This document shows, in pieces, positions 37,383 through 61,582 of a stretch of 64,000 bases of DNA; positions within the stretch are counted from its first letter, which is position 1, and each line of letters begins with the position of its first letter. This DNA comes from Chitinophagales bacterium (GTDB lineage Bacteria > Bacteroidota > Bacteroidia > Chitinophagales > Chitinophagaceae), in NCBI GenBank assembly GCA_021323755.1, contig JAJPKJ010000036.1, positions 124,001 to 188,000 of the forward strand, given 5' to 3'. Made by a program: the position numbers and the translations under genes. The notes under the pieces were generated by a model. That model ran no database searches. It saw only the letters and a program-made list of their open reading frames with translations, and was not told where the DNA came from.

Positions 37383-37430
37383 GAGGCTTTTTTAAAAAAT
37401 TGGAACAAAATGTGATGAAAAGTCTGCTTT

Positions 37431-38108: not shown

Positions 38109-38118
38109 ATAGCTAATT

Positions 38119-39339: not shown

Positions 39340-39376
39340 ACCAGCTAATTATCCAATATTTGATTTAAATGTTGAA

Positions 39377-40576: not shown

Positions 40577-40600
40577 AAAATAATATTTTGCATCAATAAA

Positions 40601-42448: not shown

Positions 42449-42543
42449 TTATACTTTTTTGCGCTAACGTGCACCAATATACGAACACGAAGAGTTGAGC
42501 ACAATAACCAATTTTTATTAGTCTTCAAAAGATTAATGCAGTA

Positions 42544-43659: not shown

Positions 43660-43686
43660 ATAGCAGCCAATTAAAAGTGAAAGCAA

Positions 43687-45012: not shown

Positions 45013-45585
45013 CTATGTCGCCCAGGCTTTATCTCCTTTTTTATAAGGAATGCAACCTTCATATTTTCCGGGAACCGCCACATAGCGGAGCGCCTTTGTT
45101 GCACCTGGTTCTGATGTGAAGTAACCCCATAAAGTCAATTCCTTCATCATCCGGAAATAATGCGTAGGGTCCTCAGGTTTTTTCTTGCTCATATAATCTT
45201 TTGCTTCTTTATCCAACGCAACTAAAAAGTCGTGTTTGTCCGTATCAGCAAGATCAACAAAGTTCTTTTTATACTTTGCAACAGCGGCATCATTCAATTT
45301 CTTCATGCCATCTAAAAATATTTTCTGGTCTTTATCTTCATAACAATCGTTTACAATAACTGTCATAAACTGACCAACTTTGGCTTCTTTCGCGCCCGGA
45401 GTAGAGGTAGCAGGAATAATGGTCTCAGCTACTTCATCCAAAAAAGATACATCGTCTGGAGTAAAAGTTAAACTCGCTCCATATTTTTTATCAGCAGGGC
45501 CGCAACCCGATAAAAATACTTCTGCGCCAACGATTGTTCCGCCGAGCAAAAGTGCAACACTTGATAACGCTTCACGTCTATTCAT
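45013..45585 (-). CDS. Gluconate 2-dehydrogenase subunit 3 family protein (Tat-exported lipoprotein)
   Basis: 190 residues. Small partner subunit of membrane FAD dehydrogenases. The N-terminus MNRREALSSVALLLGG has a twin arginine (3-4), and LSGC (Cys28) is a good lipobox, so it should be Tat-exported and lipid-anchored. The mature part has FTPDDVSFLDEVAETIIPATSTPGAKEAKVGQFM, the family hallmark. In characterised FAD-glucose dehydrogenases this subunit escorts the folded flavoprotein through Tat. It is the only such gene in the window, against five GMC catalytic genes directly upstream in the same operon. Confidence 0.88.
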   Translation of the reverse strand: MNRREALSSVALLLGGTIVGAEVFLSGCGPADKKYGASLTFTPDDVSFLDEVAETIIPATSTPGAKEAKVGQFMTVIVNDCYEDKDQKIFLDGMKKLNDAAVAKYKKNFVDLADTDKHDFLVALDKEAKDYMSKKKPEDPTHYFRMMKELTLWGYFTSEPGATKALRYVAVPGKYEGCIPYKKGDKAWAT

Positions 45586-45718
45586 AATTTATTTTTTTAG
45601 AACGTTATGAAATTAAATTTCCTGATTTTTATTGATATAACAATGATTTTATTTTTGATTTATGCTTTAATGATGTTTGATTTTTCTCATAGAATTAATC
45701 ATTATTAATTTTCCATTA

Positions 45719-47449
45719 TTATAGATTGCCTTTTTTCAGTTCACTCACAGCATAGTTTGCTGCGCGTGCTGTTAATGCCATATAAAAAATGGAAGGGCTT
45801 TGATTTGCCGTGCTCGTCATACAAGCGCCATCTGTTACAAAAACATTTTTGCAATTGTGAAACTGGTTCCATCCATTAAGCAAAGATGTCTTTGGATCTT
45901 TTCCCATCCGGCAACCGCCCATTTCATGAATATCCCTACCCGGTGCCCAATGATTATCGTGTTGTGTAATATTCTTTATTCCGCACTGATCAAACATCTC
46001 GCTACTCTGGATTAAAAAATCTTTCAATAATTTTTCATCATTATCATCATACCCAACATTTGTAACCAGTAATGGAATTCCCCATTGATCTTTCTTGTCC
46101 TTGCTTAATGTTAATGTATTGGTTTCTTTCGGAACAGTTTCTCCCTGCATATAAATATAAACTCCCCAGGGACCCGCTTCACTCATGGCATCTTTATAAG
46201 CGGCGCCAATTTGATCTGCAGATGGATCGTTGATCCCGCGCTCACGATAACAGCCCATGAAAGCCATATAACCGCCGACAAAATCCATATCGTTCTTATG
46301 AATATTTCTGAAATTAGCCATCATGCATTCCGCCGTTCTGCGTCCATAAAAATATTTGTCTTCATAACCTTCGATACTTCCGCCAACAGAACCGCGATAA
46401 TTTTGAAAACATGCATATTTTCCAAGCAATCCATTGTCATTACCAAAGCCATTTGGAAAACGATTTGAAGTTGAATTGAGCAAGATCAAATTGCTGTTAA
46501 GCGCAGAACCATTGACAAAAATTATTTTTGAAAAATATTCTGTTGCCTGGTGAGTGTTTGTATCGATGATTCTTACACCCACTGCCTTATTTTTTTTCTC
46601 ATCATAAATGATGGAATGCACCACTGAAAAAGGACGAATGGTAAGATTACCTGTCTTTTCCGCCCAGGGTAATGTAGAAGATACCGAGCTGAAATAGCCG
46701 CCAAACGGGCATCCGCGCATGCATTCGTCGCGTGCCTGGCATTTGGCGCGGCCCTGTTGAATATGAATGTCTTTGGGCTGTGTCAATTGCGCCCATCTGC
46801 CCTGTATCATGAATCGATCCTTGTAATGAGCGCTGATTTTATCGCGCAGGTCTTTTTCAGGACAATTAAAATCGAAAGGTGGCAAATATTCTCCATCGGG
46901 CATTGCTTCTAACCCATCGCGATTGCCACAAATTCCTGCAAATGTTTCTACATGCGAATACCAGGGAGCAACATCATCATAACTTATGGGCCACTCAATG
47001 CCATAACCATATTTTGCTGGATTGATGAACTCATATTTACTCCAACGGGGACAAGCTCTTCCCCATATCAACGATTTTCCCCCAACCTGGTAACCCCGGA
47101 TCCATTCAAAAGGTTTCTCCTGGACATAGGGATGATCTTTATCTTTTATGAAAAAATGAGATGTTGATTCGTCAAAACCAGCGGCTTCTGTTATCAATGG
47201 GTTTTCATCAACAAATTTCTTCGGCATTTCTCCGCGATGCGGGAAATCCCATGGATTCATCGTTGCTGTTGGATAATCTTTATTATGCACCACCATTCTT
47301 CCACGCTCCAACACCAATGTTTTTAATCCGTGATCACATAATTCCTTCGCGGCCCAACCACCGCTGATCCCGCTGCCAATAACAATAGCATCGAATGTGT
47401 TCTTGCCAACACCGCCAGCATTAATATTGACATTTGTTGTATCGCCCAT
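45719..47449 (-). CDS. GMC-family FAD dehydrogenase, catalytic subunit (paralog 1 of 5)
   Basis: 576 residues. Gluconate 2-dehydrogenase/glucoside 3-dehydrogenase-type flavoprotein; oxidises a sugar hydroxyl and passes electrons to cytochrome c. FAD motif FDAIVIGSGISGGWAAKEL (residues 19-37); cysteines 237, 243 and 247 in C-x5-C-x3-C spacing, as reported for the 3Fe-4S site of FAD-glucose dehydrogenase; catalytic His508 in HEMGGCRMG. The usual Asn of the QNPS motif is Ser551 here, which may lower or alter activity. No signal peptide. Shares the leader MGDTTNVNIN and the GGC motif with paralog 2. Nearest to the subunit-3 gene. Confidence 0.88.
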   Translation of the reverse strand: MGDTTNVNINAGGVGKNTFDAIVIGSGISGGWAAKELCDHGLKTLVLERGRMVVHNKDYPTATMNPWDFPHRGEMPKKFVDENPLITEAAGFDESTSHFFIKDKDHPYVQEKPFEWIRGYQVGGKSLIWGRACPRWSKYEFINPAKYGYGIEWPISYDDVAPWYSHVETFAGICGNRDGLEAMPDGEYLPPFDFNCPEKDLRDKISAHYKDRFMIQGRWAQLTQPKDIHIQQGRAKCQARDECMRGCPFGGYFSSVSSTLPWAEKTGNLTIRPFSVVHSIIYDEKKNKAVGVRIIDTNTHQATEYFSKIIFVNGSALNSNLILLNSTSNRFPNGFGNDNGLLGKYACFQNYRGSVGGSIEGYEDKYFYGRRTAECMMANFRNIHKNDMDFVGGYMAFMGCYRERGINDPSADQIGAAYKDAMSEAGPWGVYIYMQGETVPKETNTLTLSKDKKDQWGIPLLVTNVGYDDNDEKLLKDFLIQSSEMFDQCGIKNITQHDNHWAPGRDIHEMGGCRMGKDPKTSLLNGWNQFHNCKNVFVTDGACMTSTANQSPSIFYMALTARAANYAVSELKKGNL

Positions 47450-47549
47450 TCGATTTTAGATTTACGATATTAGTTGTACGATTCTTTTTTTTCTGATATA
47501 CCTTATCCCTTATCTTCAGTAACCAAATGTCATCAGACAATAGCTTTGG

Positions 47550-49277
47550 TCAAATATTTCCTTTCTTCAATTCTTCCACTGCATGATTTGCCGCTCTCGC
47601 CGTCAAAGCCATAAATGTTATTGAAGGATTTTGCGTGCTTGTTGATGCCATGCTTGCTCCATCTGTTACAAAAACATTATTTACATTATGAAACTGATTC
47701 CATTTATTCAGCATTGATTTCTTTGGATCTTTACCCATCCTGCAACCTCCCATTTCATGAATATCCAAACCAGGCGCCTGCTTACTGTCATTCGGGCTAA
47801 TATTCTTGCACCCTGCTTTTTCTAACATCTCAGAAGTCTGAGTTAGAAAATCTTTCAACACTTTTTCATCATTCGCATCGTAACCAACAGAAGTTATTAA
47901 CTGCGGAATGCCCCATTCATCTTTTTTATCATCACTTAACCGAACATGATTGGTTTCTTTCGGAACGGTTTCTCCCTGCATCATCGCAAACACACCCCAG
48001 TCCCCGGCTTCAGTGATTGCATCTTTGAATTTCCCCCCCAGTTGCTCATCCCCTTCCTTTACATAGGCATTCCCACGACTCGCGCTGTAATGAACCATAT
48101 ACCCACGCAGAAAATCCATTTCTTGTTTATATACATTTCTGAAATTTGGCATCATGGCCTGCGTTGGTCTTCTGCCGAAATAATATTTGTCTGCCGGTCC
48201 ATCATAAGAGGCATATACGGTGCCGCGATAATTATGAAAACAAACATATTTTCCAAGCAAGCCGTTATCATTACCTAATCCATTTGGAAAACGATTTGAT
48301 TTTGAATTCAGCAATATAAGATTGCTGTTAAGACAAGCCGCATTAACGAATATTATTTTGGCAAAATAATCTGTGGATTGTTTGCTGTGTGCATCAATAA
48401 CTTTTACGCCGATTGCTTTCCCTTTTTTATCATCGTAAATAATTGAATGAACAACGGAATTCGGCTGCAATGTGAGATTACCGGTTTTCAAAGCCCATGG
48501 AATTGTGGTTGAGTTAGAACTGAAGTATCCACCAAAGGGACAACCGCGCTCGCACAAACTTCTTGCCTGGCATTGCTGGCGACCCTGTTCAATATGAATG
48601 GGGTTTGGTTTTGTGAGATGCGCGCAACGTCCAACAATCGGATATCGGTCTTTGTAATTTGAAGCAATTTTATCCTGTATATTTTTTTCAACGCAATTCA
48701 ATTCCCATGGCGGAAGAAATTCTCCGTCAGGCAAAGTTTCCAATCCATCCCTGTTGCCGCTAATGCCTGCAAAGATTTCAACGTGTGAATACCAGGGCGC
48801 AATATCTTCATAACGGATCGGCCAATCTCCAAAACCATCACGCGCCGGCCCCTCAAAGTCAAATCTGCTCCAGCGTTGCGTTTGGCGAGCCCATAATAAA
48901 GATTTTCCACCAACCTGGTAGCCGCGTATCCAATCGAAAGGTTTTTCCTGTATGTATGGATGCTCTTTGTCTTTTACAAAAAAATGTTGAGATGATTCAC
49001 CGAAAGCATAACATCTTGCCACAACCGGATTTTCATCCAAAACTTTAACAGGCATTTGACCGCGATGCGGAAAATCCCATGGGTTTTTTGTCGCGGTGGG
49101 ATAATCTTTTAAATGAACAACATTTTTTCCCCGTTCGAGCATTAATGTTTTCAATCCATGATCACATAATTCTTTTGCAGCCCAACCACCGCTGATGCCG
49201 CTGCCAATAACAATTGCATCGTACGTGTTCTTTGCAACACCACCGGAGTTAATATTGACATTTGTTGTATCGCCCAT
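47550..49277 (-). CDS. GMC-family FAD dehydrogenase, catalytic subunit (paralog 2 of 5)
   Basis: 575 residues and closest to paralog 1: same MGDTTNVNIN leader, HEMGGCRMG around His507, and no signal peptide. It keeps the catalytic Asn550 (QNPS) and the cysteine cluster at 236, 242 and 246 (CQARSLCERGC). The variable region between residues 85 and 160, which should shape the substrate pocket, differs from the other four (ARCYAFGESSQHFFVKDKEHPY). 100 bp separate it from paralog 1 and 88 bp from paralog 3, consistent with one long transcript. Confidence 0.88.
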   Translation of the reverse strand: MGDTTNVNINSGGVAKNTYDAIVIGSGISGGWAAKELCDHGLKTLMLERGKNVVHLKDYPTATKNPWDFPHRGQMPVKVLDENPVVARCYAFGESSQHFFVKDKEHPYIQEKPFDWIRGYQVGGKSLLWARQTQRWSRFDFEGPARDGFGDWPIRYEDIAPWYSHVEIFAGISGNRDGLETLPDGEFLPPWELNCVEKNIQDKIASNYKDRYPIVGRCAHLTKPNPIHIEQGRQQCQARSLCERGCPFGGYFSSNSTTIPWALKTGNLTLQPNSVVHSIIYDDKKGKAIGVKVIDAHSKQSTDYFAKIIFVNAACLNSNLILLNSKSNRFPNGLGNDNGLLGKYVCFHNYRGTVYASYDGPADKYYFGRRPTQAMMPNFRNVYKQEMDFLRGYMVHYSASRGNAYVKEGDEQLGGKFKDAITEAGDWGVFAMMQGETVPKETNHVRLSDDKKDEWGIPQLITSVGYDANDEKVLKDFLTQTSEMLEKAGCKNISPNDSKQAPGLDIHEMGGCRMGKDPKKSMLNKWNQFHNVNNVFVTDGASMASTSTQNPSITFMALTARAANHAVEELKKGNI

Positions 49278-49365
49278 TCAACATACTATTTATGATGCAG
49301 CCTTTCTAATTTGCGGTTATAGGTTACATCTGATTTTCTTTTTTTTCAATTGCCTTTATCAATCA

Positions 49366-51045
49366 CTAAATATTCCCTTTCTTCAACTCACTCACCGCAT
49401 AATTTGCTGCACGTGCTGTTAATGCCATATAAGTAAGAGATGGATTCTGGCAAGCGCTTGATGTCATGCAAGCTCCGTCCGTCACAAAAACATTTTTTGC
49501 ATCCCAAACCTGGTTGTGCATATTTAGTACCGATGTCTTCGGGTCCTTTCCCATTCTTGCCGTTCCCATTTCATGAATACCATCACCAATTTCATGACCG
49601 CCATCCCATGTTTTCACATCTTTGATTCCTGCAGACTCAAACATTGCTTTTGCTTCTTCAACGATCGCTTTGCGCATCTTCTTTTCATTATCCTTCAATT
49701 CTGCATCCATCGCCAGCACAGGTAATCCCCATTTATCTTTTTTATTTTTATCTAGCGTGATCTTATTTTCATGATAAGGTAATAATTCGCCAAAGCCTGT
49801 CATACCAATTGTCCAGGCGCCCGGCTCCGTCAATTCTTCCTTGAATTGCGCGCCGATACTTAGTTCTGCAACACTTCTGCTCCATCCCTCCCGACTTGCG
49901 CCCCCCTGGTACCCAAAGCCGCGAAGAAAATCTCTTTTATCTCCAAACAAATTTGCGAAGCGAACAATATAAAATCCATTTGGTCTTCTTCCATAATAAT
50001 ATTTGTCTTCATAACCTTCAACCAAACCTGAAGCTCCAACATTGTAATGATGATCCATAATATTATGACCCAATTCACCACTGCTGCTGCCCAAACCATC
50101 GGGCCAAATATCAGTTGCCGAATTCATTAATACCCATGCGCTGTTTAATGCAGATGCATTTACAAAAACGATTTTTGACAGATAAGTATATGTTTGATTA
50201 TTCTCGGCATCAAGAATTTCAACCCCCTTTGCTTTTTTCTTATCCTTATCGTATAAAATTCTTGTAACAATACTCCAGGGACGAACAGTGAGGTTACCGG
50301 TTTTTTTTGCTGCCGGTAAGGTCGATGATTGTGTGCTGAAATATGCACCAAACGGACATCCTTCCCAGCAACGATTACGAAACTGACATTGCGTTCTTCC
50401 TTCGATCGGTGCGGTCAAATTTGCACTTCGGCCAATGATCAGGTGTCTGTTACCGTTATATTTTTCTTTTATCCTTGCAGAAACATCTTTTTCAACACAA
50501 TTCAATTCCATCGGCGGTAAGAAATGCCCGTCAGGCAATTGTTGCAAACCTTCGAGAGATCCATTTACACCAATGAATTTTTCCACATGATCGTACCAGG
50601 GCTGAATATCTTTATAACGAATTGGCCAATCAATCGCCCAGCCATCTTTCGCGTTGGCATTAAAATCAAAATCACTCCAGCGATAACTTTGTCGTCCCCA
50701 TAAGATAGAACGTCCTCCCAGTTGATACGATCGCCACCATTTAAACGGTTTGACCTCAGTGTAAGGACAATCAACATCATTAGCCCAATAATCCATAATT
50801 GGTTCAACCTTGCCCCAGGTGCGTGCGATGATAGGATGCTGTTGTAATTGTGCTTGCGTTGCTCTTCCGCGATGAGCAAAATCCCATGGGTTTTTATCGG
50901 CAGATTTATAATCTTTGAGATGTTCGAAATTTCTTCCGCGTTCAAGCATCAATACTTTCAATCCGCTTTCGGTAAGCTCTTTTGCAGCCCAGCCACCGCT
51001 GATTCCGGAGCCGATTACAATTGCATCATAAACATTATCGGGCAT
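49366..51045 (-). CDS. GMC-family FAD dehydrogenase, catalytic subunit (paralog 3 of 5)
   Basis: 559 residues from the ATG at 51045 (MPDNVYDAIVIGSG), chosen because paralogs 4 and 5 start at the same place; a frame to 51069 adds 8 residues. Belongs to the second subtype with HEMGTARMG (His491), QNPS (Asn534) and CQFRNRCWEGC (Cys220, 226, 230). It lacks the N-terminal extension of paralogs 1 and 2. The putative pocket segment (PIIARTWGKVEPIMDYWANDVDCPY) is distinct from paralogs 4 and 5. Confidence 0.88.
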   Translation of the reverse strand: MPDNVYDAIVIGSGISGGWAAKELTESGLKVLMLERGRNFEHLKDYKSADKNPWDFAHRGRATQAQLQQHPIIARTWGKVEPIMDYWANDVDCPYTEVKPFKWWRSYQLGGRSILWGRQSYRWSDFDFNANAKDGWAIDWPIRYKDIQPWYDHVEKFIGVNGSLEGLQQLPDGHFLPPMELNCVEKDVSARIKEKYNGNRHLIIGRSANLTAPIEGRTQCQFRNRCWEGCPFGAYFSTQSSTLPAAKKTGNLTVRPWSIVTRILYDKDKKKAKGVEILDAENNQTYTYLSKIVFVNASALNSAWVLMNSATDIWPDGLGSSSGELGHNIMDHHYNVGASGLVEGYEDKYYYGRRPNGFYIVRFANLFGDKRDFLRGFGYQGGASREGWSRSVAELSIGAQFKEELTEPGAWTIGMTGFGELLPYHENKITLDKNKKDKWGLPVLAMDAELKDNEKKMRKAIVEEAKAMFESAGIKDVKTWDGGHEIGDGIHEMGTARMGKDPKTSVLNMHNQVWDAKNVFVTDGACMTSSACQNPSLTYMALTARAANYAVSELKKGNI

Positions 51046-51129
51046 AAAATATTTTATGTAATTACTCAAATCGAAAATCGCTCAATGGCTCAGAACAGCC
51101 ATCATACCACTTTCATATTTTCACCTTGT

Positions 51130-52806
51130 TCAAATATTCCCTTTTTTCAATTCACTCACCGCATAGTCTGCGGCGCGCGCGGTTAAAGCCATATAAGTTA
51201 ATGATGGATTTTGACATGCTGCTGATGTCATGCATGCTCCATCTGTCACAAAAACATTTTGGGCATCCCAAACCTGGTTCCATTTATTAAGAACAGAAGT
51301 TTTCGGGTCTTTTCCCATTCTTGCTGTTCCCATTTCATGGATACCCCGACCCAGGAATGGATTTGCATCGCGTGAATGAATATTCTTTACGCCAATTGCT
51401 TCGAGCATTTCCTGCGCATCATTCAGCATATCTTTTCTCATCTTTAATTCATTTTCTTTTAACTCGGCATCAATGGCTAAGACAGGCAATCCCCATTTGT
51501 CTTTTTTTGTCTTATCAAGCGTTGCTTTATTATCATGGTAAGGAAGCGTCTCTCCGAATCCGCCAAGATTCATTGTCCATCCTCCCGGTTCTGATAATGC
51601 TTCTTTCAGGTCAACGCCAAGTGCAATTTCTTCTGCAGAGCGTGCATAGCCCGAACGCGCGCCGCCGCCCTGGTAACCGAATCCGCGGATATAATTTCTT
51701 TTATCGCCAAAGAAATTCCTGTAACGCGGTATATAAACTCCGTTCGCACGACGCCCGAAATAATATTTGTCCTCATAACCATCAACAGACCCTGACGCCC
51801 CGACATTTAAATGATGATCCATTAAATTATGTCCAAGCTCTCCGCTGCTGCTACCTAATCCATCCGGCCAAACATCCGTTGCGGAATTCATTAAGACCCA
51901 AGCACTGTTCAATGTAGATGCATTAAGAAAGACAATTTTGGCTTTATATTCATAGGTCTTCATCGTTTCTGCATCAAGTACTTCAACACCGGTTGCTTTT
52001 TTCTTGTCCTTATCATACAAAATTTTTGTAACGATGCTCCAGGGGCGAAGTGTGAGATTACCGGTTTTTCTTGCTGCCGGTAAGGTGGAAGATTGCGTAC
52101 TGAAATAGGCGCCAAACGGGCATCCCAGCCAACATTTATTTCTGAACTGACATTGAGTTCTTCCTTCGATCGGCGCAGTGAGATTTGCGGTACGACCGAT
52201 TATCATATCTCTGTTCTTGAACTTTTCTTTTAATCTGACCGCTGCATCTTTTTCAACGCAGGTCATATCCATCGGTGGGAGAAAATGTCCATCCGGCAAT
52301 TGCACCAAACCGTCTTTGTTGCCGCTGATGCCAGCAAATTTTTCAACATAATCATACCACGGTTCAACATCCTTATAACGGATCGGCCAATCAACTGCAA
52401 TTCCATCTTTTGCATTCTCTTCAAAATGCATGTCGCTCCACCGATAACTTTGTCTGCCCCACATTAACGAGCGACCGCCGGTGTGGTAACCGCGAAACCA
52501 ATCGAATCGTTTTACTTCCGTGTAGGGACATTCAGCATCTTTCACCCAATAGCTGAGGTTGGTTTCATTGAGCGGATAATCTCTTTTTAAAACGGGATAA
52601 TCTTTTATCATCTCCTGTGTCCGTCGTCCGCGGTGCGGAAAGTCCCATGCTTCCATGTTCGCCGTTTTGTAATCTTTGACGTGCTCAATGTGTTCACCGC
52701 GTTCGAGCATGATCACTTTTAATCCTTTTTCAGTAAGCTCTTTCGCAGCCCAGCCACCGCTGATCCCTGAGCCTATCACAATGGCATCATAAATATTTTC
52801 AGGCAT
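51130..52806 (-). CDS. GMC-family FAD dehydrogenase, catalytic subunit (paralog 4 of 5)
   Basis: 558 residues. Very similar to paralog 5 over its whole length, pointing to a recent duplication. FAD motif YDAIVIGSGISGGWAAKEL, cysteines 219, 225 and 229 (CQFRNKCWLGC), His490 in HEMGTARMG and Asn533 in CQNPS are all intact. Lacks a signal peptide and so presumably depends on the shared Tat-bearing subunit 3 for export. Confidence 0.88.
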   Translation of the reverse strand: MPENIYDAIVIGSGISGGWAAKELTEKGLKVIMLERGEHIEHVKDYKTANMEAWDFPHRGRRTQEMIKDYPVLKRDYPLNETNLSYWVKDAECPYTEVKRFDWFRGYHTGGRSLMWGRQSYRWSDMHFEENAKDGIAVDWPIRYKDVEPWYDYVEKFAGISGNKDGLVQLPDGHFLPPMDMTCVEKDAAVRLKEKFKNRDMIIGRTANLTAPIEGRTQCQFRNKCWLGCPFGAYFSTQSSTLPAARKTGNLTLRPWSIVTKILYDKDKKKATGVEVLDAETMKTYEYKAKIVFLNASTLNSAWVLMNSATDVWPDGLGSSSGELGHNLMDHHLNVGASGSVDGYEDKYYFGRRANGVYIPRYRNFFGDKRNYIRGFGYQGGGARSGYARSAEEIALGVDLKEALSEPGGWTMNLGGFGETLPYHDNKATLDKTKKDKWGLPVLAIDAELKENELKMRKDMLNDAQEMLEAIGVKNIHSRDANPFLGRGIHEMGTARMGKDPKTSVLNKWNQVWDAQNVFVTDGACMTSAACQNPSLTYMALTARAADYAVSELKKGNI

Positions 52807-52918
52807 AGTTTTGAATTTATGAATTACGGTTATACATAGCTGTTAGCAGACAGCCATTCGTTAAAGTATTTTATAGAAATGGACATAATATCAAATCTTC
52901 ATTATCAATGATCAATTC

Positions 52919-54595: not shown

Positions 54596-54675
54596 AATTA
54601 TTGATTTTAAAATTATTCAATTTGAAATTACTCAATGCCCGATGAAGCGATTGAGTAATCGAGATATTTTCATAT

Positions 54676-55563
54676 TTACACGTCACATAATTCAATCGCT
54701 TTTTTAAGCGATCCGATCTTATCTGGTGCCGCTGGAATGAATTCCTGCGCAACATATCCTTTGTAACCAGTATCCACAATGGCTTTCATAATTGCTGGAT
54801 AATATAATTCCTGGGACTGATCAATTTCATGTCTTCCGGGTACACCGCCTGTGTGATAATGCCCAAAATATTTAACATTTTCACGAATTGTTCTTATCAC
54901 ATCGCCTTCATCGATCTGCATGTGATAAATATCGTAGAGCAATTTAAAATTGGGTGAACCAACCCGCTTGCATAATTCAACACCCCATGGAGATCTGTCG
55001 CACATATAATCTTTATGATCAATTTTGCTGTTCAATAATTCCATATGGACCGTAATGCCGCTCTTTTCTGCTGCGGGTAAAATCTTTTGCAGCCCCTCAA
55101 CGCAATTTCTGAAGCCAGTTTCATCATCCATTCCGCGGCGACTTCCGCTAAAGCAGATAACATCTTTGTAACCGGCCTTAACCATCAGCGGAAAAACGTC
55201 GAGATAATCTTTGATCAGTTGCCCGTGAAATTTTTTCTCATTAAACCCATCTGTTAAACTGACATTCCCGCCATGATAGCACATGGAAGAGTAAATGCCA
55301 TATCCCTGAATAGTTGGCCAGTCCTTGGGTCCGAGAAGATCGATGGCATTAAAACCGATCTGTTTTACGGCTTTACACAATTCATCAAGAGAGAGAAAAT
55401 TGTAAGTCCACTGGCAAACGGAATGATTGATATTACCTTTCAATTCAATTTTTTTTTGAGTTTCGCTTAATACATAGGTAGGTAAAAGTGATGCGGTGCC
55501 AAGTGCGGCTGTTCCTGCAACAATATTTTTGATAGCACTTCGGCGAGAATGTTTTTCGGGCAT
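54676..55563 (-). CDS. Sugar phosphate isomerase/epimerase-like TIM barrel, Tat-exported
   Basis: 295 residues of the xylose-isomerase-like (AP endonuclease 2) fold. The start has SRRSAIKN (Arg7-Arg8) followed by an alanine-rich hydrophobic core (IVAGTAALGTASLLPTYVLS), a Tat signal, so the barrel acts outside the cytoplasm. Metal ligands are seen in HMELLNSK (Glu), LLYDIYHMQ (Asp/His), YFGHYHTGG (His) and VAQEF (Glu). It resembles hydroxypyruvate-isomerase-type proteins. In this operon it may rearrange or cleave 3-keto-sugars. It lies between the MFS and GMC genes. Confidence 0.85.
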   Translation of the reverse strand: MPEKHSRRSAIKNIVAGTAALGTASLLPTYVLSETQKKIELKGNINHSVCQWTYNFLSLDELCKAVKQIGFNAIDLLGPKDWPTIQGYGIYSSMCYHGGNVSLTDGFNEKKFHGQLIKDYLDVFPLMVKAGYKDVICFSGSRRGMDDETGFRNCVEGLQKILPAAEKSGITVHMELLNSKIDHKDYMCDRSPWGVELCKRVGSPNFKLLYDIYHMQIDEGDVIRTIRENVKYFGHYHTGGVPGRHEIDQSQELYYPAIMKAIVDTGYKGYVAQEFIPAAPDKIGSLKKAIELCDV

Positions 55564-55656
55564 GAATTCAACCGTTAAAAAAGTAATTTACAAAAATGAA
55601 TGTTATTTTATGGCGATTATTTTATAAGCTACGCTAATTTTTTAATAAACGGGAAA

Positions 55657-56904
55657 TCACAACTCTCCAATCGGGCTAAGCGTTTCTTTAGCTGCAGCAT
55701 AATGTTTTCGGCGAACAACATAAATCAGCACAAAAATGACCAACAAGATCGCGGGCATTATGGCAACTTTCAAAAAAGTATTGGAGCCAGCTACTGCGTC
55801 AGCCTGTGGGCCGGTCAATCCTTTGGCCACTGCTGCGGATTTGAAGTCATCGTACCACCTGCCCATAAAAGGAATAATGATTGCAGTGGAAAACATGCCT
55901 GCACCGCCCATTAATGATAAACCCAATGCTCCGGTATTGGGCAAATATTCAGAAACAAAACCCAGCATGGTAGGCCAAAAAAAACAGACGCCGGCAGCAA
56001 AAACAAAAGCTGCGCCAAATGCCATGTAGCCCGTTGAATAACTTAATAATATCAATCCAATACCTGCTAAAAATGCGGAGGTGATAAGCATTCCGTTGGG
56101 ATTAAGTTTATGCACAACGGGTCCCGCGAACGATCTGCCCAAGGCCATCAACCCGTTAATAAATACAAGAATCAAGATCCCGGAAACATTTGCGCCCTGC
56201 AGCAAAGCAACAATCCAGGTATTTGTTCCCAATTCCGTGGCGCCGGTCATAAACATGCAAATCAGGATGACCAAAAACAAAGGCGTAAGACAGGAAAGGA
56301 ACATTTGTTTGGTACTGACTCCTTTGGTCACCCTTTCCGTTTGCGGAAGTTTTAATTTCAAAAACAGGAACCCGTAAATTATCGCCGGAATGAATAATAA
56401 TGCAATTAAGTAATGCCAATCAATTTTTAATTGTTCAATAAACAGATAAGAAAGTAATCCACCAATTACAATACCTCCCGGAAACCATACATGGAACCGA
56501 TTCAGCATGGTTGTTTTGTTTTCAGGGAATAAAGTAACCGTTAAGGGATTACAGGCAGCTTCCACCATGCCGTTACCAATCCCGATGCACACTGTTCCGG
56601 CAAATAGCATGGTTGCATCTTTAGCCACGAGATAAATAATAACGCCAGCAATGTGTCCGACAAAAGCGATTCCTAATAAATTCTTCATTCCAATTACATC
56701 GCACAGAGGACCACCAAAGACCATTGCCAGTGTAAATCCCCAAAAAGCCGGGCTAAATATCCAGCCAAGTTGTTCTTTGGTGAGATGAAAAGATTCTCCC
56801 CACACCCCTTCCAGCGATGCGCGAAAAGCAAATGTCATGGCTGTAAATATTAAAGCGATGCGAGCGGCAACAAAAAGTTTATTGCGCTGAATGGTAGAAG
56901 TCAT
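55657..56904 (-). CDS. MFS transporter (sugar uptake, putative)
   Basis: 415 residues with twelve predicted helices. The first helix pair (IALIFTAMTFAFRASLEGVWGESFHLTKEQLGWIFSPAFWGFTLAMVFGGPLCDVIGMKNLL) carries the MFS loop 2-3 motif, and GNGMVEAACNPLTVTLFPENKTTMLNRFHVWFPGG is reminiscent of the FucP-like hexose symporter group. First gene of the minus-strand operon, so it probably imports a glycoside or the keto-sugar product. The last residues form a cytoplasmic tail (RRKHYAAAKETLSPIGEL). Confidence 0.85.
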   Translation of the reverse strand: MTSTIQRNKLFVAARIALIFTAMTFAFRASLEGVWGESFHLTKEQLGWIFSPAFWGFTLAMVFGGPLCDVIGMKNLLGIAFVGHIAGVIIYLVAKDATMLFAGTVCIGIGNGMVEAACNPLTVTLFPENKTTMLNRFHVWFPGGIVIGGLLSYLFIEQLKIDWHYLIALLFIPAIIYGFLFLKLKLPQTERVTKGVSTKQMFLSCLTPLFLVILICMFMTGATELGTNTWIVALLQGANVSGILILVFINGLMALGRSFAGPVVHKLNPNGMLITSAFLAGIGLILLSYSTGYMAFGAAFVFAAGVCFFWPTMLGFVSEYLPNTGALGLSLMGGAGMFSTAIIIPFMGRWYDDFKSAAVAKGLTGPQADAVAGSNTFLKVAIMPAILLVIFVLIYVVRRKHYAAAKETLSPIGEL

Positions 56905-57251
56905 GGCAAGTTATTTTGGTTTAGAAATCGTTAGTCACTGTTTTTTTATTTTCACAAGGTTTTCGAACAATGTAACTTTATTGCCGTTCTTTCAAAAAAA
57001 GTTTTTTTAAAAACAGCTCATAAATGTAATTTTTTATTTTTAAAAATCAATAGCAATAACTGTTATTTTGACAATTTCTAAAAAAGATTTTTATTTTTTT
57101 ACTCACAGAAAAATTTTGAAGATTAGCAATTCAAAAAAATAATACAATGATTATTCGGTGAGCCCTCATAAAAGTTTTTAAGCGATTAATATTAGTTATG
57201 ATGGATTTTTATTGCAAATGATACGCGAATTAATAATCAAAAAATAAACAC
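56905..57251. promoter_or_regulatory. Divergent control region of the glycoside-oxidation locus
   Basis: 347 bp of very AT-rich DNA between the MFS and Gfo/Idh/MocA genes. It contains a perfect palindrome AATAAC-T-GTTATT (57055-57067), a candidate operator. No exact TAnnTTTG element was found for either direction. It is the only sizeable non-coding stretch of the locus, so both transcripts are likely controlled here. No regulator gene lies in the locus. Confidence 0.5.
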
Positions 57252-58424
57252 ATGAAACGAAAGTTGCGAATGGGAATGGTTGGCGGAGGCAAAGATGCTT
57301 TCATCGGCGCCATTCACCGCATTGCTGCCAATATGGATGGATTGGTTGAATTATGTTGTGGCGCACTGAGCATTAATCCCGAGATTGCTAAAGACAGTGG
57401 TAAAATGCTTTTTCTTCCTGAAGACAGAACTTATCTCACCTTCGATGAAATGATCAGTAAAGAAAGCAAACTGCCTGCCGATAAACGAATTGATTTTGTA
57501 ACCATCGTTACGCCAAACTTCGCGCATTTTGCTCCGGCAATGATGGCGCTTGATAATGGCTTTAATGTAGTCATTGAAAAGCCAATTGCTTTTACTTTAG
57601 ATGAAGCAAGACAATTAAAAAAGAAAGTGGAAGAGACCGGATTGATATTGTGTTTAACACATACATACTCAGGATATCCAATGGTGAAGCAGGCAAAGCA
57701 GATGGTGAAAAATGGTGCATTGGGAAAGATCAGAAAAGTTTGGGTTGAATATCCTCAAGGATGGTTAAGTAAATTAACCGAACGCGAAGGAAACGCGCAA
57801 GCTGCGTGGAGAACGGACCCAAAAAAATCAGGAAAGAGCGGATGCATGGGCGACATTGGAACACATGCTGCTCATCTTGCGGAATATATTTCCGGATTGA
57901 AGATCACCCATCTATGCGCCGATCTTAATGCAATGGTCGAAGGTCGTGCGCTTGATGATGATGGAAATGTTTTATTAAGATTTGATAATGGCGCCACCGG
58001 CGTACTGATGGCATCACAGGTTGCTGCCGGTGAAGAAAATGCATTGAGAATCCGAATTTACGGTGAAAAAGGTGCGTTGGAATGGGCGCAACAGGAACCA
58101 AACACATTAATTTCAAAATGGCTTGATCAACCAACGCAAATTTTACGCGCGGGGGTTGGATATAAAGAACCATTATCAAGTTATGCAACTCATAATTTCC
58201 GTACTCCCGGCGGACATCCGGAAGGATATCTGGAAGCATTCGGAAATATATACCGAAATTTTGCGCTCACACTTTCTGCGAAACTCGAGGGCAGGGAACC
58301 ACCAAAAGAAGCATTGGATTTTCCTGGGGTTGAAGATGGCGTTCGCGGAATGGCTTTCATTGATAATGTGGTGAAGAGTAACGAAAGCACAGAGAAATGG
58401 ACATTCTTTGAAATGCCACAATAA
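57252..58424 (+). CDS. Gfo/Idh/MocA family oxidoreductase
   Basis: 390 residues. NAD(P)-binding Rossmann domain (RMGMVGGGKDAFIGAIHRIAA) and catalytic EKPIAFTLDEA (Lys near 115), then the C-terminal domain with GDIGTHAAHLAEYISG carrying the catalytic histidine. No signal peptide, hence cytosolic. In known 3-keto-sugar routes such an enzyme reduces 3-keto-glucose back to glucose or oxidises the C3 hydroxyl; reduction fits better here because the GMC enzymes can do the oxidation. First gene of the plus-strand arm. Confidence 0.88.
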   Translation: MKRKLRMGMVGGGKDAFIGAIHRIAANMDGLVELCCGALSINPEIAKDSGKMLFLPEDRTYLTFDEMISKESKLPADKRIDFVTIVTPNFAHFAPAMMALDNGFNVVIEKPIAFTLDEARQLKKKVEETGLILCLTHTYSGYPMVKQAKQMVKNGALGKIRKVWVEYPQGWLSKLTEREGNAQAAWRTDPKKSGKSGCMGDIGTHAAHLAEYISGLKITHLCADLNAMVEGRALDDDGNVLLRFDNGATGVLMASQVAAGEENALRIRIYGEKGALEWAQQEPNTLISKWLDQPTQILRAGVGYKEPLSSYATHNFRTPGGHPEGYLEAFGNIYRNFALTLSAKLEGREPPKEALDFPGVEDGVRGMAFIDNVVKSNESTEKWTFFEMPQ

Positions 58425-58528
58425 ATTGTAGCCGGTATCAAGTTGCCATTAACTTGTTTAATGAAATGACCGGCCGGGTTGCTGGCAAATGAACAGAAAA
58501 CAAAACACGACAAACCATATACGCGATT

Positions 58529-59584
58529 ATGCAAACAATAAAAGGTCCTGCCATTTTTTTGGCGCAATTCTTGGGCGATAACCCACCCTTCAATACGTTA
58601 GAATCAATTTGCAAATGGGCAAAGAGTTTAGGATTTGTGGGTGTACAAATTCCATCATGGGATGCGCGATGCATTGATTTAAAACTAGCTGCTGAAAGTA
58701 AAAATTATGCAGACGAAATCAAAGGCATCATTAATGAGGCAGGTTTACAGATCACAGAATTATCAACCCATTTGCAAGGACAATTGGTTGCGGTGCATCC
58801 CGCATATGATGCATTGTTTGACGGATTCGCGCCGGCAGAAGTTCATAATAATAGCAAAGCAAGAACGGAGTGGGCAGTTCAACAATTAAAATATGCAGCA
58901 AAAGCATCGCAAAATTTGGGGTTAGCTGCCCATGCCACATTTAGCGGCGCCTTGTTATGGCCAACAGTTTACCCGTGGCCCCAACGACCGGCGGGATTAG
59001 TAGAAACAGGTTTCAAAGAATTAGCCAATCGCTGGATGCCGATCCTAAATGAGTTTGATAAATGCGGCGTCGATCTTTGTTATGAAATTCATCCTGGCGA
59101 AGATCTGCATGATGGAATTACATATGAAATGTTTTTGAAACACACCAACGATCATCCGCGTGCGTGCTTGCTGTACGATCCGTCTCATTTTGTATTGCAA
59201 TGTCTCGATTATCTTACTTACATTGATTATTATCATGAACGAATAAAAATGTTTCATGTAAAGGATGCAGAGTTTAATCCAACTGGAAAACAAGGAGTTT
59301 ATGGTGGTTATCAGGGTTGGATAGACAGGGCGGGAAGATTTCGTTCCTTGGGTGACGGGCAGGTAGATTTTAAATCTATTTTTAGTAAATTAACTGCCTA
59401 CGATTTTAAAGGATGGGCTGTGCTGGAATGGGAATGTTGCATCAAACATCCTGAAGATGGCGCAAAAGAAGGCGCAATATTTATTAAAGACCACATCATT
59501 CGAGTGACAGAAAGGGCATTTGATGATTTTGCAGGAACGGGCAGCGATGAAAATTTTAATAGAAAAGTTTTAGGTTTGAACTAA
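58529..59584 (+). CDS. Sugar phosphate isomerase/epimerase-like TIM barrel, cytosolic
   Basis: 351 residues, no signal peptide. The xylose-isomerase-like barrel has metal ligands in VDLCYEIHPGEDLHDG (Glu), LLYDPSHFVLQ (Asp/His), MFHVKDAEF (His) and WAVLEWE (Glu). This larger type commonly sits beside Gfo/Idh/MocA genes in Bacteroidota. Related folds include C-glycoside deglycosidase subunits and keto-sugar isomerases, which fits a 3-keto-sugar pathway. 104 bp follow the Idh gene, 56 bp precede the cytochrome gene. Confidence 0.85.
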   Translation: MQTIKGPAIFLAQFLGDNPPFNTLESICKWAKSLGFVGVQIPSWDARCIDLKLAAESKNYADEIKGIINEAGLQITELSTHLQGQLVAVHPAYDALFDGFAPAEVHNNSKARTEWAVQQLKYAAKASQNLGLAAHATFSGALLWPTVYPWPQRPAGLVETGFKELANRWMPILNEFDKCGVDLCYEIHPGEDLHDGITYEMFLKHTNDHPRACLLYDPSHFVLQCLDYLTYIDYYHERIKMFHVKDAEFNPTGKQGVYGGYQGWIDRAGRFRSLGDGQVDFKSIFSKLTAYDFKGWAVLEWECCIKHPEDGAKEGAIFIKDHIIRVTERAFDDFAGTGSDENFNRKVLGLN

Positions 59585-59640
59585 ATTACTTCCGATTTTG
59601 AATTTATAAACGATCTCATAACCTTTAGTTATAATTAATC

Positions 59641-60039
59641 ATGAAAAAAACATTCATTATTTTTTCTTCCGTATTGCTACTAACAGCTTGTGGAAGTTCG
59701 GGTGATAAGAAATCTGAAAAAACAGATACCACAACAAGCACCACCACAACAGTAAGCCCGAGCGCAGAAAAAGCGCTGGAATTGATTGGACAAAGCGATT
59801 GCACAACTTGTCACAAGCTGGATAAAAATGCGACAACAGGGATGGCCATCGGACCAGCTTATAGCGATGTAGCTGCAAGATATGCTCCTGCTGCAGATAC
59901 AACTATTGACCGTTTGGTTAAAAAAGTTATTTCAGGTGGAAGTGGTGTGTGGGGAACGGCTCCCATGACAGCGCACCCAGGATTAAAAGAAGACGATGTA
60001 AAGACGATAGTTACCTATATTCTTACTTTAAAAAAATAA
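59641..60039 (+). CDS. Lipoprotein cytochrome c (c-551/c-552 type)
   Basis: 132 residues. Lipoprotein signal with LTAC (Cys17), a Ser/Thr linker, then one heme c site CTTCH (Cys54, Cys57, His58) and the axial methionine in GTAPMTAHP (Met109). Electron carrier in the periplasm. Its location within the glycoside-oxidation locus makes it the likely acceptor for the GMC/subunit-3 dehydrogenases. Only 4 bp separate it from the DUF1080 gene, so the two are cotranscribed. Confidence 0.9.
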   Translation: MKKTFIIFSSVLLLTACGSSGDKKSEKTDTTTSTTTTVSPSAEKALELIGQSDCTTCHKLDKNATTGMAIGPAYSDVAARYAPAADTTIDRLVKKVISGGSGVWGTAPMTAHPGLKEDDVKTIVTYILTLKK

Positions 60040-60043
60040 ATTT

Positions 60044-60778
60044 ATGAAAAGGGCTTTGATTGTTCTTGCTGCAATCATGACGGTTGCATTAATTTCATTT
60101 TCGTTCATAAAAAAAAATATGGCAACTGATAATACTAAAAATATACTTTCTGCTGCCGAAAAAAATGACGGATGGGTATCCTTATTCGATGGAAAGACAA
60201 CAGATGGCTGGCACACTTACAATGAAGCAAAAGCAGGCAGTGCATGGAATGTAGCAGATGGCGCTTTGCACCTGGATCCAAAAATTAAAGATGGCCGAGG
60301 GGATATTGTTACAAGCAAAGAGTTCAGCAATTTTGATCTCAAAATTGAATGGAAGATTTCTCCGAAAGGAAACAGCGGAATAATATTCTTTGTAAAAGAA
60401 GATCCAAAAATTGAAGCATCGTTTGAAAGCGGACCTGAAATGCAGGTTTTAGATAACGACGGGCATCCGGATGGAAAAATTCCTAAGCATCGCGCCGGCG
60501 ATTTATATGACCTGATCTCCTGCTCAAAAGAAACCGTAAAGCCTCTCGGTGAATGGAACCAGGTTGAGATCATCGCCAATCACGGCGACCTGAAACTTTT
60601 TTTGAACGGATACAATGTTGTTCACACAACAATGTGGGATGACAATTGGAAAAAAATGGTTGCGGGAAGCAAATTCAAAGAATGGCCGGTGTTCGGGACA
60701 TTTACAAAAGGCAGAATTGATTTGCAGGACCATGGAAACGAAGTGTGGTTCCGCAATATTAAGATCAAAGAATTGTAA
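60044..60778 (+). CDS. DUF1080 protein, 3-keto-disaccharide hydrolase family
   Basis: 244 residues. N-terminal signal/anchor (MKRALIVLAAIMTVALISFSFI) and one concanavalin-like beta-sandwich: GWVSLFDGKTTDGWHTYNEA, FSNFDLKIEWKISPKGNSGIIFFV, GPEMQVLDNDGHPDG and IDLQDHGNEVWFRNIKIKEL are the family motifs. The family (PF06439) has been renamed for its ability to cleave 3-keto-glycosides. Exported, hence placed to hydrolyse products made by the GMC dehydrogenases in the periplasm. Confidence 0.9.
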   Translation: MKRALIVLAAIMTVALISFSFIKKNMATDNTKNILSAAEKNDGWVSLFDGKTTDGWHTYNEAKAGSAWNVADGALHLDPKIKDGRGDIVTSKEFSNFDLKIEWKISPKGNSGIIFFVKEDPKIEASFESGPEMQVLDNDGHPDGKIPKHRAGDLYDLISCSKETVKPLGEWNQVEIIANHGDLKLFLNGYNVVHTTMWDDNWKKMVAGSKFKEWPVFGTFTKGRIDLQDHGNEVWFRNIKIKEL

Positions 60779-60826
60779 ACTTATCATATCACTCTTCTCG
60801 GGTCTATTCCATTTAAAAAACTTTGT

Positions 60827-61582
60827 ATGAAAATATCAAGATTAATAAGATTTGCTGCTGCACCTGCATGCATTATTCTTTGCTTGTTTTTTATCAGCGC
60901 AACACACCATGCAGCTAAACCTAAAGTGCTGATATTTTCGAAAACGAATGGTTTTCGTCATGCAAGTATTCCGGTTGGCATTGAAGCAATAAAGAAATTA
61001 GGGGCAGAAAATAATTTTGATGTTGATGCCACAGAAGATTCAACTGCTTTCAGAACTGATAATTTAAGAAAATATGCCGCCTTGATCTTTTTAAGTCCGA
61101 CAGGAAAGGTTTTCGGTCCCGATGAAGAAAAGGCTTTGCAGGATTATATCCACGGTGGTGGTGGATTTGTCGGGATCCATGCTGCCACGGATTGTGAATA
61201 TAACTGGCAGTGGTATGGAGACCTCGTCGGTGGATATTTTAAATCTCACCCCAAACAGCAGCAGGCAAAATTTATGGTGGTAGATAAGAATCATCTCGCA
61301 ACCAGTTTTCTGCCTGATGTATGGGAACGTTTTGACGAGTTATACAATTTCAAATATCTCAGTCCGCATATTCATCCTTTGATTAAAATAGATGAAACAT
61401 CTTACGATCCGGGAGATGGAAAAATGGGAGACAATCATCCGATGGCATGGTATCAATATTATGAAGGTGGGCGCTCATTTTACACGGAGCTTGGGCACAC
61501 CAATGAATCATATTCAGATCCAAATTATCTTAAACATGTCTTAGGCGGCATTCAATGGGCGATGACGAAAAGAGCGATGTAA
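60827..61582 (+). CDS. ThuA-like domain protein, secreted
   Basis: 251 residues with a signal peptide (about 1-27). Class I glutamine-amidotransferase-like fold of the ThuA family: KPKVLIFSKTNGFRHASIPVGIEAIKKLG, GGGGFVGIHAATDCEYNWQWYG and PMAWYQYYEGGRSFYTELGHTNESY. ThuA was named from trehalose utilisation through 3-keto-trehalose in rhizobia, and the family often accompanies DUF1080 and Gfo/Idh/MocA genes. Exact reaction unknown. Last gene of the plus-strand arm; no clear terminator was seen. Confidence 0.88.
   Translation: MKISRLIRFAAAPACIILCLFFISATHHAAKPKVLIFSKTNGFRHASIPVGIEAIKKLGAENNFDVDATEDSTAFRTDNLRKYAALIFLSPTGKVFGPDEEKALQDYIHGGGGFVGIHAATDCEYNWQWYGDLVGGYFKSHPKQQQAKFMVVDKNHLATSFLPDVWERFDELYNFKYLSPHIHPLIKIDETSYDPGDGKMGDNHPMAWYQYYEGGRSFYTELGHTNESYSDPNYLKHVLGGIQWAMTKRAM

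Follow-up and report, generated by a model that had tools for sequence, protein, structure and literature searches.

Why should a bacterium line up five genes for GMC flavoproteins and follow them with a single gene for subunit 3, the small partner of the Gluconate_2-dh3 family on which their export would depend, and what would such a set be used for? The question is raised by positions 45013-61582 of a 64,000-nt stretch of DNA (called the window below, always at its full length), which is the forward strand, positions 124,001-188,000, of contig JAJPKJ010000036.1 from a Chitinophagales bacterium (Chitinophagaceae; GCA_021323755.1), a genome of 75 contigs with a completeness of 99.81%. In our opinion the best answer, to which we give a probability of about 0.65, is that we see a locus of the lacABC/DUF1080 kind for the periplasmic breakdown of glycosides, in which five GMC enzymes work on one subunit 3 and the glycoside is taken through oxidation, elimination, hydration and reduction. 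We reach this answer by interpreting gene content, protein families, motifs, cysteines and active-site residues, synteny, GMC classes and homology to a hydratase; the reactions, the sharing of subunit 3 and the differences in substrate are put forward as proposals.

The locus is built of two divergent blocks, one on the minus strand (45013-56904) and one on the plus strand (57252-61582). Reading outwards from the region between them, the minus block runs MFS transporter, TIM1, GMC5, GMC4, GMC3, GMC2, GMC1 and subunit 3, and the plus block Gfo, TIM2, cytochrome c, DUF1080 and ThuA. Its features, with the GMC classes that are introduced further on, are as follows.

45013..45585, minus strand: Gluconate_2-dh3 subunit 3, a twin-arginine translocation (Tat) hitchhiker of 190 aa, last gene of the block (PF13618, 132.7 bits)
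45502..45585, minus strand: twin-arginine pair R3 R4 and lipobox L25-S-G-C28 of subunit 3 (N-terminus read by eye)
45719..47449, minus strand: GMC1, class E flavoprotein of 576 aa (PF05199/PF00732; clade support 1.0)
45797..45799, minus strand: GMC1 codon 551, Ser at the second catalytic position, Asn in GMC2-5 (alignment)
45926..45928, minus strand: GMC1 codon 508, catalytic His retained (alignment)
46274..46276, minus strand: GMC1 codon 392, Gly as against Arg of classes A-D (alignment)
46709..46741, minus strand: GMC1 C-x5-C-x3-C (C237, C243, C247), with the spacing of 3Fe-4S ligands
47550..49277, minus strand: GMC2, class D, 575 aa (Pfam and tree)
49366..51069, minus strand: GMC3, class B, 567 aa from the called TTG (Pfam and tree)
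51130..52806, minus strand: GMC4, class A, 558 aa (Pfam and tree)
52919..54595, minus strand: GMC5, class A, 558 aa, adjoining TIM1 (Pfam and tree)
54676..55563, minus strand: TIM1, AP_endonuc_2 protein with Tat signal and invariant E175, D211, H237 and E274 (PF01261)
55657..56904, minus strand: MFS transporter, first gene of the minus block (PF07690)
56905..57251, no strand: divergent intergenic region, presumed control region (gene layout)
57252..58424, plus strand: Gfo/Idh/MocA oxidoreductase without signal peptide, presumed 3-keto-sugar reductase (family match)
58529..59584, plus strand: TIM2, AP_endonuc_2 protein, cytoplasmic homologue of 2-hydroxy-3-keto-glucal hydratase (PDB 8ro4)
59641..60039, plus strand: mono-haem lipoprotein cytochrome c, 132 aa (PF00034; lipobox by eye)
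60044..60778, plus strand: DUF1080 / 3keto-disac_hyd protein with N-terminal signal (PF06439, 175.7 bits against a cut-off of 26.8)
60827..61582, plus strand: ThuA-domain protein with N-terminal signal (PF06283, 264.8 bits)

The initial annotation had listed the same genes (five GMC proteins, subunit 3, cytochrome c, DUF1080, ThuA, two TIM barrels, Gfo and MFS), and indeed all are open reading frames backed by Pfam, each of the five GMC proteins matching both PF00732 and PF05199 above cut-off. For GMC3, an ATG near 51045 is the likelier start as judged from the translated N-terminus, because that N-terminus would then resemble those of GMC4 and GMC5; the called TTG adds 8 residues. Chance or an artefact of annotation can be rejected as the origin of the arrangement, given that the same gene order occurs in many relatives, including the single-contig genomes G126 and G049. 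The whole genome gives six GMC_oxred_C matches, of which the locus accounts for five, and two Gluconate_2-dh3 matches, of which it accounts for one. The sixth GMC and the second subunit 3 form a separate pair on contig C64, whose GMC is 83% identical to one near the array of a relative (L006) and whose subunit 3 is 26% identical to that of the window. We considered this pair as part of the system and rejected it as a distant type.

Is such an array a peculiarity of one genome? We searched 147 genomes of the family, found a PF13618 match in 106 and fetched one locus each from 92; the 14 positive genomes left out include the window's own, and a second locus of one genome (L008 of G034) was excluded. 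Nineteen of the 92 loci were picked first, partly for their multi-GMC look. The remaining 73 were located through a subunit-3 match in 70 cases and through a GMC match in 3 (G017, G026, G063), and in several genomes the subunit-3 match near a GMC was taken rather than the best-scoring one. If a complete locus is defined as a full run from TIM1 to subunit 3, 73 of the 92 loci are complete and 19 incomplete. The complete ones hold one GMC gene (43 loci), two (19), three (2), four (3), five (5) or six (1), so that 2-6 GMC genes stand before one subunit 3 in 30/73, a share that may be inflated because the first 19 loci were partly chosen for arrays and a subunit 3 near a GMC was preferred. The array, a design that the initial annotation had not seen described, is thus not confined to one genome: there are these 30 loci and a further one with seven GMC genes (L111, with the same gene order in L043). 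The initial annotation had also proposed a search for arrays of at least three GMC genes beside one subunit 3, and these do exist, in 11/73. A second set, of 79 loci from named records nearest to GMC5 (best 80 of 505), is biased and overlaps the family sample; 53 of its loci are complete, with 1-5 GMC genes each. Among the carriers of five GMC genes is a cultured and named one, Limnovirga soli KCS-6 (L032), and the other five-GMC loci from named records are metagenome-assembled.

In all 73 complete family loci the gene adjoining TIM1 is of class A. The stretches fetched for them contain Gfo in 63 cases, TIM2 in 56, DUF1080 in 51, cytochrome c in 49, MFS in 39 and ThuA in 3, absences being partly due to stretch ends. 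About half of the complete family loci seem to lack the window's type of MFS. Of 99 MFS proteins of relatives (overlapping loci included), 9 share at least 70% identity with that of the window and the other 90 share 42-51%, and it seems that the transporter was swapped while its position stayed. Single-GMC loci are found on plasmids of Hymenobacter volaticus, Xanthomonas sacchari and Paracoccus liaowanqingii, with GMC5 71.9% identical to the Hymenobacter protein, 66.1% to that of Xanthomonas sacchari and 63.3% to that of Paracoccus. In the Paracoccus plasmid locus an ATP-binding cassette (ABC) transporter replaces MFS, and the stretch has no cytochrome c. In Foetidibacter luteolus (L028) we noted an array of classes A, A and D with no subunit-3 match in the roughly 8 kb that follow.

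What kind of enzymes are these? The best matches of the window's GMC proteins among PDB sequences are fructose dehydrogenase and the glucose dehydrogenase of Burkholderia cepacia (BcGDH). In BcGDH the 3Fe-4S ligands are Cys212, Cys218 and Cys222, the gamma subunit is a Tat hitchhiker, and His476/Asn519 are given as the likely catalytic pair (PMC6719666). All five window proteins, and every class of their relatives, carry C-x5-C-x3-C, from the spacing of which a 3Fe-4S cluster is predicted. The catalytic His is kept in all five in the alignment, and the Asn in GMC2-5, while GMC1 has Ser551. No window GMC comes near the pyranose oxidase model TIGR02462 (35.8-65.3 bits against a cut-off of 544.9).

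Export signals were read from N-termini by eye and by motif patterns over orthologues. By eye, the flavin adenine dinucleotide (FAD) motif of the five GMC proteins lies within a few residues of the N-terminus, leaving no signal peptide, and subunit 3 begins MNRREAL and has the lipobox LSGC; since it carries both the twin arginine and the lipobox, it should be a Tat-exported lipoprotein. The twin arginine is present in 136/137 unique orthologues and, together with a strict lipobox pattern, in 117/137; of eight misses listed, most show EGC at the same place. A Tat-like motif is seen in 119/124 orthologues of TIM1, DUF1080 and ThuA have Sec-type N-termini (by eye), and TIM2 and Gfo are without signal. 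Orthologues of the cytochrome c have a single CxxCH in 98/99 cases and a lipobox-like motif in 73/99. The genome holds one TatC and two COX1-family genes.

At the level of motifs, a small subunit with a Tat signal accompanies catalytic subunits without one, as in the direct-electron-transfer FAD dehydrogenase complexes of BcGDH (PDB 6a2u) and Gluconobacter fructose dehydrogenase (7w2j), with which the window also shares the GMC fold, the 3Fe-4S spacing and, in four of five proteins, His/Asn. Unlike these complexes, it has His/Ser in GMC1, a lipobox on subunit 3 and a lipoprotein cytochrome c with one haem where they have a membrane subunit with three. Because the catalytic pair of GMC1 and the three-haem cytochrome do not agree, we suppose that the complex works like this type without being one in all respects. 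Each GMC protein would fold in the cytoplasm with FAD and 3Fe-4S, bind subunit 3 and leave through Tat on the signal of its partner, which would remain as a lipoprotein anchor. Outside, the GMC protein would oxidise the C3 hydroxyl of a glycosyl residue, and electrons would pass from FAD over 3Fe-4S and the lipoprotein cytochrome c to a terminal oxidase.

Are the five proteins simply copies of one another? In a tree of 212 GMC proteins (sequences beyond these were assigned to a class by best BLAST hit), class B has 31 sequences with support 1.0 and includes GMC3; class C has 10 with support 1.0, none in the window; and a group of D, E and M has 47 with support 0.999. Within it, class E (18 sequences, support 1.0) includes GMC1 and class D (23 sequences) includes GMC2, with a support of just 0.521. 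The remaining 117 sequences, GMC4 and GMC5 among them, are called group A as a remainder, not as a shown clade. The window array thus consists of four old classes, A twice, B, D and E. Because the same classes adjoin in different genera, the array did not arise by recent copying, GMC4 and GMC5 perhaps excepted; on the tree we reject recent tandem duplication for the A, B, D and E groups, and consider it possible for the two class A genes. The four classes would have been kept for different glycosides, all served by one subunit 3.

Class E deserves particular attention. His508 and Ser551 are found in 27/27 class E sequences from loci fetched up to L172 (overlapping loci included; 20 are distinct). 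At the latter position Asn is found in 302/303 sequences of classes A, B, C, D and M, the exception being a truncated reading frame. Position 392 is Gly in all of class E as opposed to Arg in all of classes A-D. Fructose dehydrogenase has Asn in the column of Ser551; a PDB entry of its N1190A variant exists, and by our own reading N1190 is the residue in this column. GMC1 departs from the His/Asn pair that GMC2-5 share with the BcGDH and fructose dehydrogenase complexes, and for this reason it is placed with them by homology and its other features only. Its structural model (predicted local distance difference test, pLDDT, 83.0; predicted template modelling score 0.87) finds fructose dehydrogenase and BcGDH as first fold matches, with a template modelling score of about 0.75 by query length and 19-23% identity. 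Could GMC1 be a decaying pseudogene? We reject this, given the conserved class E residues and a non-synonymous divergence from the nearest relative (L022) of 0.074, within the 0.061-0.084 of the other four, from which we conclude that it is under like constraint; synonymous distances are saturated, so the comparison is one of equal non-synonymous divergence and no dN/dS is claimed.

A search for class E in 395 genomes of the bacterial class, with the best 30 loci fetched, returned nine class E proteins. One is the window's own and another belongs to a known array; of the rest, one is from the same family and six are from two other families. All nine have Ser551 and Gly392, and the other-class proteins scored have Asn and Arg in 21/21 cases. 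Around the seven outside arrays (six from other families, one from the same family) the fetched stretch, which for L204 meets a contig end on one side, shows neither another GMC nor a subunit 3. The subunit 3 nearest to them is about 14-25 kb off in three genomes; in two more the distance is about 190 and 380 kb, and in the last two genomes subunit 3 sits on other contigs. No evident signal peptide is seen in these stand-alone proteins; in L206 the reading frame as called starts with a hydrophobic extension, upstream of an ATG that is the likelier start. Several stand beside sugar genes: L205 has Gfo, proteins of the glucosamine-isomerase and ketohexokinase families, DUF1080 and a rhamnosidase; L206 shows the same layout (Gfo, a 244-aa protein, a kinase, class E, DUF1080; only the kinase was scanned); in L209 class E lies inside a locus with SusC, SusD, GH123, GH3, MFS and a Gfo/isomerase/ketohexokinase trio; and in L210 GH43, GH3 and GH97 come after it. 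The context in L204, L207 and L208 is not clear among the few genes scanned. As a separate observation, the Gfo, glucosamine-isomerase and ketohexokinase partners of class E in L205, L206 and L209, which come from another family, represent a different follow-up route from that of the window.

GMC1 is probably a working but re-shaped enzyme, with His/Ser for His/Asn, and most likely for a different sugar. Because class E stands alone, several times beside sugar genes, we take it to be active on another substrate, and subunit 3 to be a partner that can serve in trans. The initial annotation had imagined exchangeable GMC proteins on one partner. This idea is strengthened by the genomics, since the classes are old, GMC genes outnumber those for subunit 3 and some of them lie far from it; what has to be amended is that the five are not alike in their catalytic pair, which is altered in one. 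Classes B and D, too, are found next to SusC/SusD in a stretch that lacks subunit 3 (L212). It is tempting to go further, and we do so tentatively, at less than even odds: in Bacteroidota one Tat-exported lipoprotein partner may serve a changing set of GMC proteins, in trans across the genome as well, some of them encoded in polysaccharide utilisation loci, and class E may be a new kind of GMC protein, with a His/Ser pair and the loss of Arg392, that has another substrate or another position of oxidation.

What happens to the oxidised glycoside? TIM2 is 70% identical over 349 aligned positions (E 1.2e-176) to PDB 8ro4, a 2-hydroxy-3-keto-glucal hydratase, and because of this close full-length homology cleavage by elimination is implied. 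It is not an IolE by TIGR04379 (63.3 bits against a cut-off of 290). Gfo reaches 112.5 bits against a cut-off of 650 for levoglucosan dehydrogenase (NF052479) and 34.4 bits against 750 for the BT2158-type Gfo glycoside 3-dehydrogenase (NF058561), below the cut-off in both cases. The dehydrogenase of the Bacteroides BT2157/BT2158 pathway is of this Gfo type, as its NCBIfam name also says, unlike the GMC proteins of the window. The invariant E/D/H/E set of TIM1 could be a metal site. Its model (pLDDT 78.9) gave psicose/tagatose (ketose 3-) epimerases first among the best 50 of 1882 fold matches, with C-glycoside lyases (DgpB-C, CGD) and a 3-keto-glucoside 4-epimerase further down; the solved O-glycoside beta-eliminase AtOGE (8BVK) is neither among these 50 nor among 27 profile matches of TIM1. 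DUF1080 has 14 PDB matches, including 4jqt, 8tda and 8rr2, and since PF06439 matches eight times in the genome, redundancy is likely.

We favour elimination in the periplasm, import, and cytoplasmic hydration and reduction, because TIM2 homology, an operon of Agrobacterium (described below) and the plasmid loci together point that way. DUF1080, possibly helped by the Tat-exported TIM1, would split the 3-keto-glycoside by beta-elimination, and after import the product would be hydrated by TIM2 and reduced by Gfo. The pathway drawn in the initial annotation, with a periplasmic GMC/subunit 3/cytochrome c unit, DUF1080, uptake and a cytoplasmic Gfo, agrees with this up to the hydration step, which it omitted and which TIM2 homology adds. 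On a plasmid of Phyllobacterium (L216) the hydratase and Gfo are accompanied by LacI and an ABC transporter for sugars, with no GMC or DUF1080 in the 15-kb stretch, as if the cytoplasmic half of the pathway were there to scavenge products made elsewhere.

A number of points weigh against this picture. Activity on glycosides is a prediction for all five GMC proteins, and their C3 regioselectivity is deduced from neighbouring genes only. The name of 8ro4 is the depositors', and the hydration role of the TIM protein of Agrobacterium is called preliminary (PMC10628242). In Pedobacter 0/10 DUF1080 genes had a lactose phenotype, for which the authors suggest possible redundancy (PMC9007349). Class D is weakly supported in our tree. 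As to sharing, the excess of GMC over subunit-3 matches (467:268 in 109 family genomes, with GMC in excess in 71) is overstated because PF05199 takes in GMC enzymes that work without subunit 3 as well, and the two counts are equal in 36 of the 109 genomes, with subunit 3 in excess in 2. A second subunit 3 of this type lies near the array in 4/92 family loci (L006, L133, L143, L168), class M genes of Mucilaginibacter come with their own divergent subunit 3, and the class E gene of L120 has a subunit 3 of its own immediately behind it, no second GMC lying within the 15.5 kb fetched. Hence, pairing of GMC and subunit 3 can be specific.

Given these points, could the array be explained more simply? 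If it arose by neutral duplication or for dosage, all copies would have the same substrate range and the array would only raise the amount of enzyme. GMC4 and GMC5, both of class A and close, would suit this, as would a copy number that varies from 1 to 6 among relatives. We regard it as unlikely, since the array holds four groups that recur together in different genomes and differ at fixed sites, and since members of classes B, D and E are found outside arrays too, in some cases beside SusC/SusD or other sugar genes. Somewhat less probable in our judgement is that GMC1 is a non-catalytic partner in a mixed complex with active sisters, as could be argued from the replaced second catalytic residue of every class E protein seen and from the presence of class A in 9/9 complete family arrays that hold class E. 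Against it, class E occurs alone with subunit 3 in L120 and without another GMC in seven stretches, and the stand-alone proteins keep the FAD motif, the catalytic His and the Fe-S cysteines; it follows that class E needs no adjacent active sister. It must be added in favour of the partner role that the genomes of stand-alone class E do hold other GMC genes elsewhere.

The chemistry, too, may be read otherwise. The closest solved structures are fructose and glucose dehydrogenases, and some or all of the GMC proteins might oxidise other positions (C1, C2, C5) or free sugars and polyols, with the locus serving sugar oxidation in general. We find this doubtful: the identity of GMC1 to these enzymes is only 19-23%, and the linkage with the hydratase, Gfo and DUF1080 is recurrent, slightly changed even in the Hymenobacter, Xanthomonas and Paracoccus plasmids. 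The cleavage by DUF1080 that the initial annotation supposed could also be genuine hydrolysis, with the TIM proteins only epimerising the keto-sugar, a reading that has a small but real chance of being right. The family name (3-keto-disaccharide hydrolase), the proposal of 3'-ketolactose hydrolysis in PMC9007349 and the resemblance of TIM1 in fold to psicose/tagatose epimerases (best 50 of 1882) all speak for it. Yet TIM2, present in 56/73 complete loci in spite of stretches that often end before it, is a close hydratase homologue, and hydration would be useless after simple hydrolysis. We therefore retain elimination followed by hydration.

How much of this is known already? Growth of Caulobacter on lactose involves lacABC together with genes for a DUF1080 protein, a transporter, two epimerases and a reductase; 3'-ketolactose hydrolysis is proposed, and lacA-like and DUF1080 genes are reported also from Pedobacter, Indibacter and others (PMC9007349). 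At the level of gene families the window is alike in its three-part dehydrogenase, DUF1080, transporter, two epimerase-like genes and reductase; compared with the text of that paper, it differs in five GMC proteins of four classes on one subunit 3, in ThuA and in the changed catalytic pair. Agrobacterium has a route in four steps, made up of a flavin dehydrogenase, a TIM-barrel beta-eliminase, a protein with a preliminary hydration role and a Gfo reductase (PMC10628242). The window shares with this GlycDH-OGE-HYD-Gfo operon the logic of oxidation, elimination, hydration and reduction and the hydratase and Gfo family members; unlike it, it has subunit 3 and cytochrome c, DUF1080, and a Tat-signal TIM1 without profile match to AtOGE. 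Bacteroides BT2157/BT2158, a DUF1080 protein and a periplasmic glycoside 3-dehydrogenase as we propose for the window, are needed for some disaccharides (PMC11300592, PMC11501099). For lacABC/DUF1080 loci, both the gene set and the part it plays in using glycosides have already been published. Not found in the literature searched, and in this sense new, are the multi-class GMC array with one subunit 3 and the class E His/Ser pair with Gly392: in the top-ranked results from open-licence literature we recognised no description of either, which is not proof of absence.

Cleavage of glycosides by way of 3-keto intermediates is a second route beside classical glycosidases, and the oxidising enzyme takes its first step. 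Genomes with 1-7 oxidases per partner offer a natural series for the residue changes that decide which glycoside is opened, and with class E one can ask directly whether the GMC catalytic pair tolerates another amino acid at its second position. If subunit 3 is shared in trans, orphan-looking GMC genes of Bacteroidota, otherwise read as cytoplasmic, may encode exported respiratory dehydrogenases.

The surroundings of the locus remain to be described. One Bacteroidota promoter pattern gave 5 matches in the window against 6.25 expected, none of them inside the locus. Adjacent to it lies a mannan-type operon (36690-43686) with GH26, an SSF transporter, a 161-aa protein without Pfam match, GH130, a protein of the N-acetylglucosamine 2-epimerase family, a GDSL esterase and a short-chain dehydrogenase/reductase; an AraC regulator stands beside it at 44043. 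We considered this operon as a hint to the substrate and found no support for it: a similar AraC protein (>50% identity) is present only in the close relative L022 among the stretches L001-L172, many of which end soon after subunit 3. Further away, 26348-29707 encodes a 1119-aa protein that combines a B12-binding domain, a MeaB-type GTPase and a methylmalonyl-CoA-mutase domain, and that resembles the fused isobutyryl-CoA mutase IcmF.

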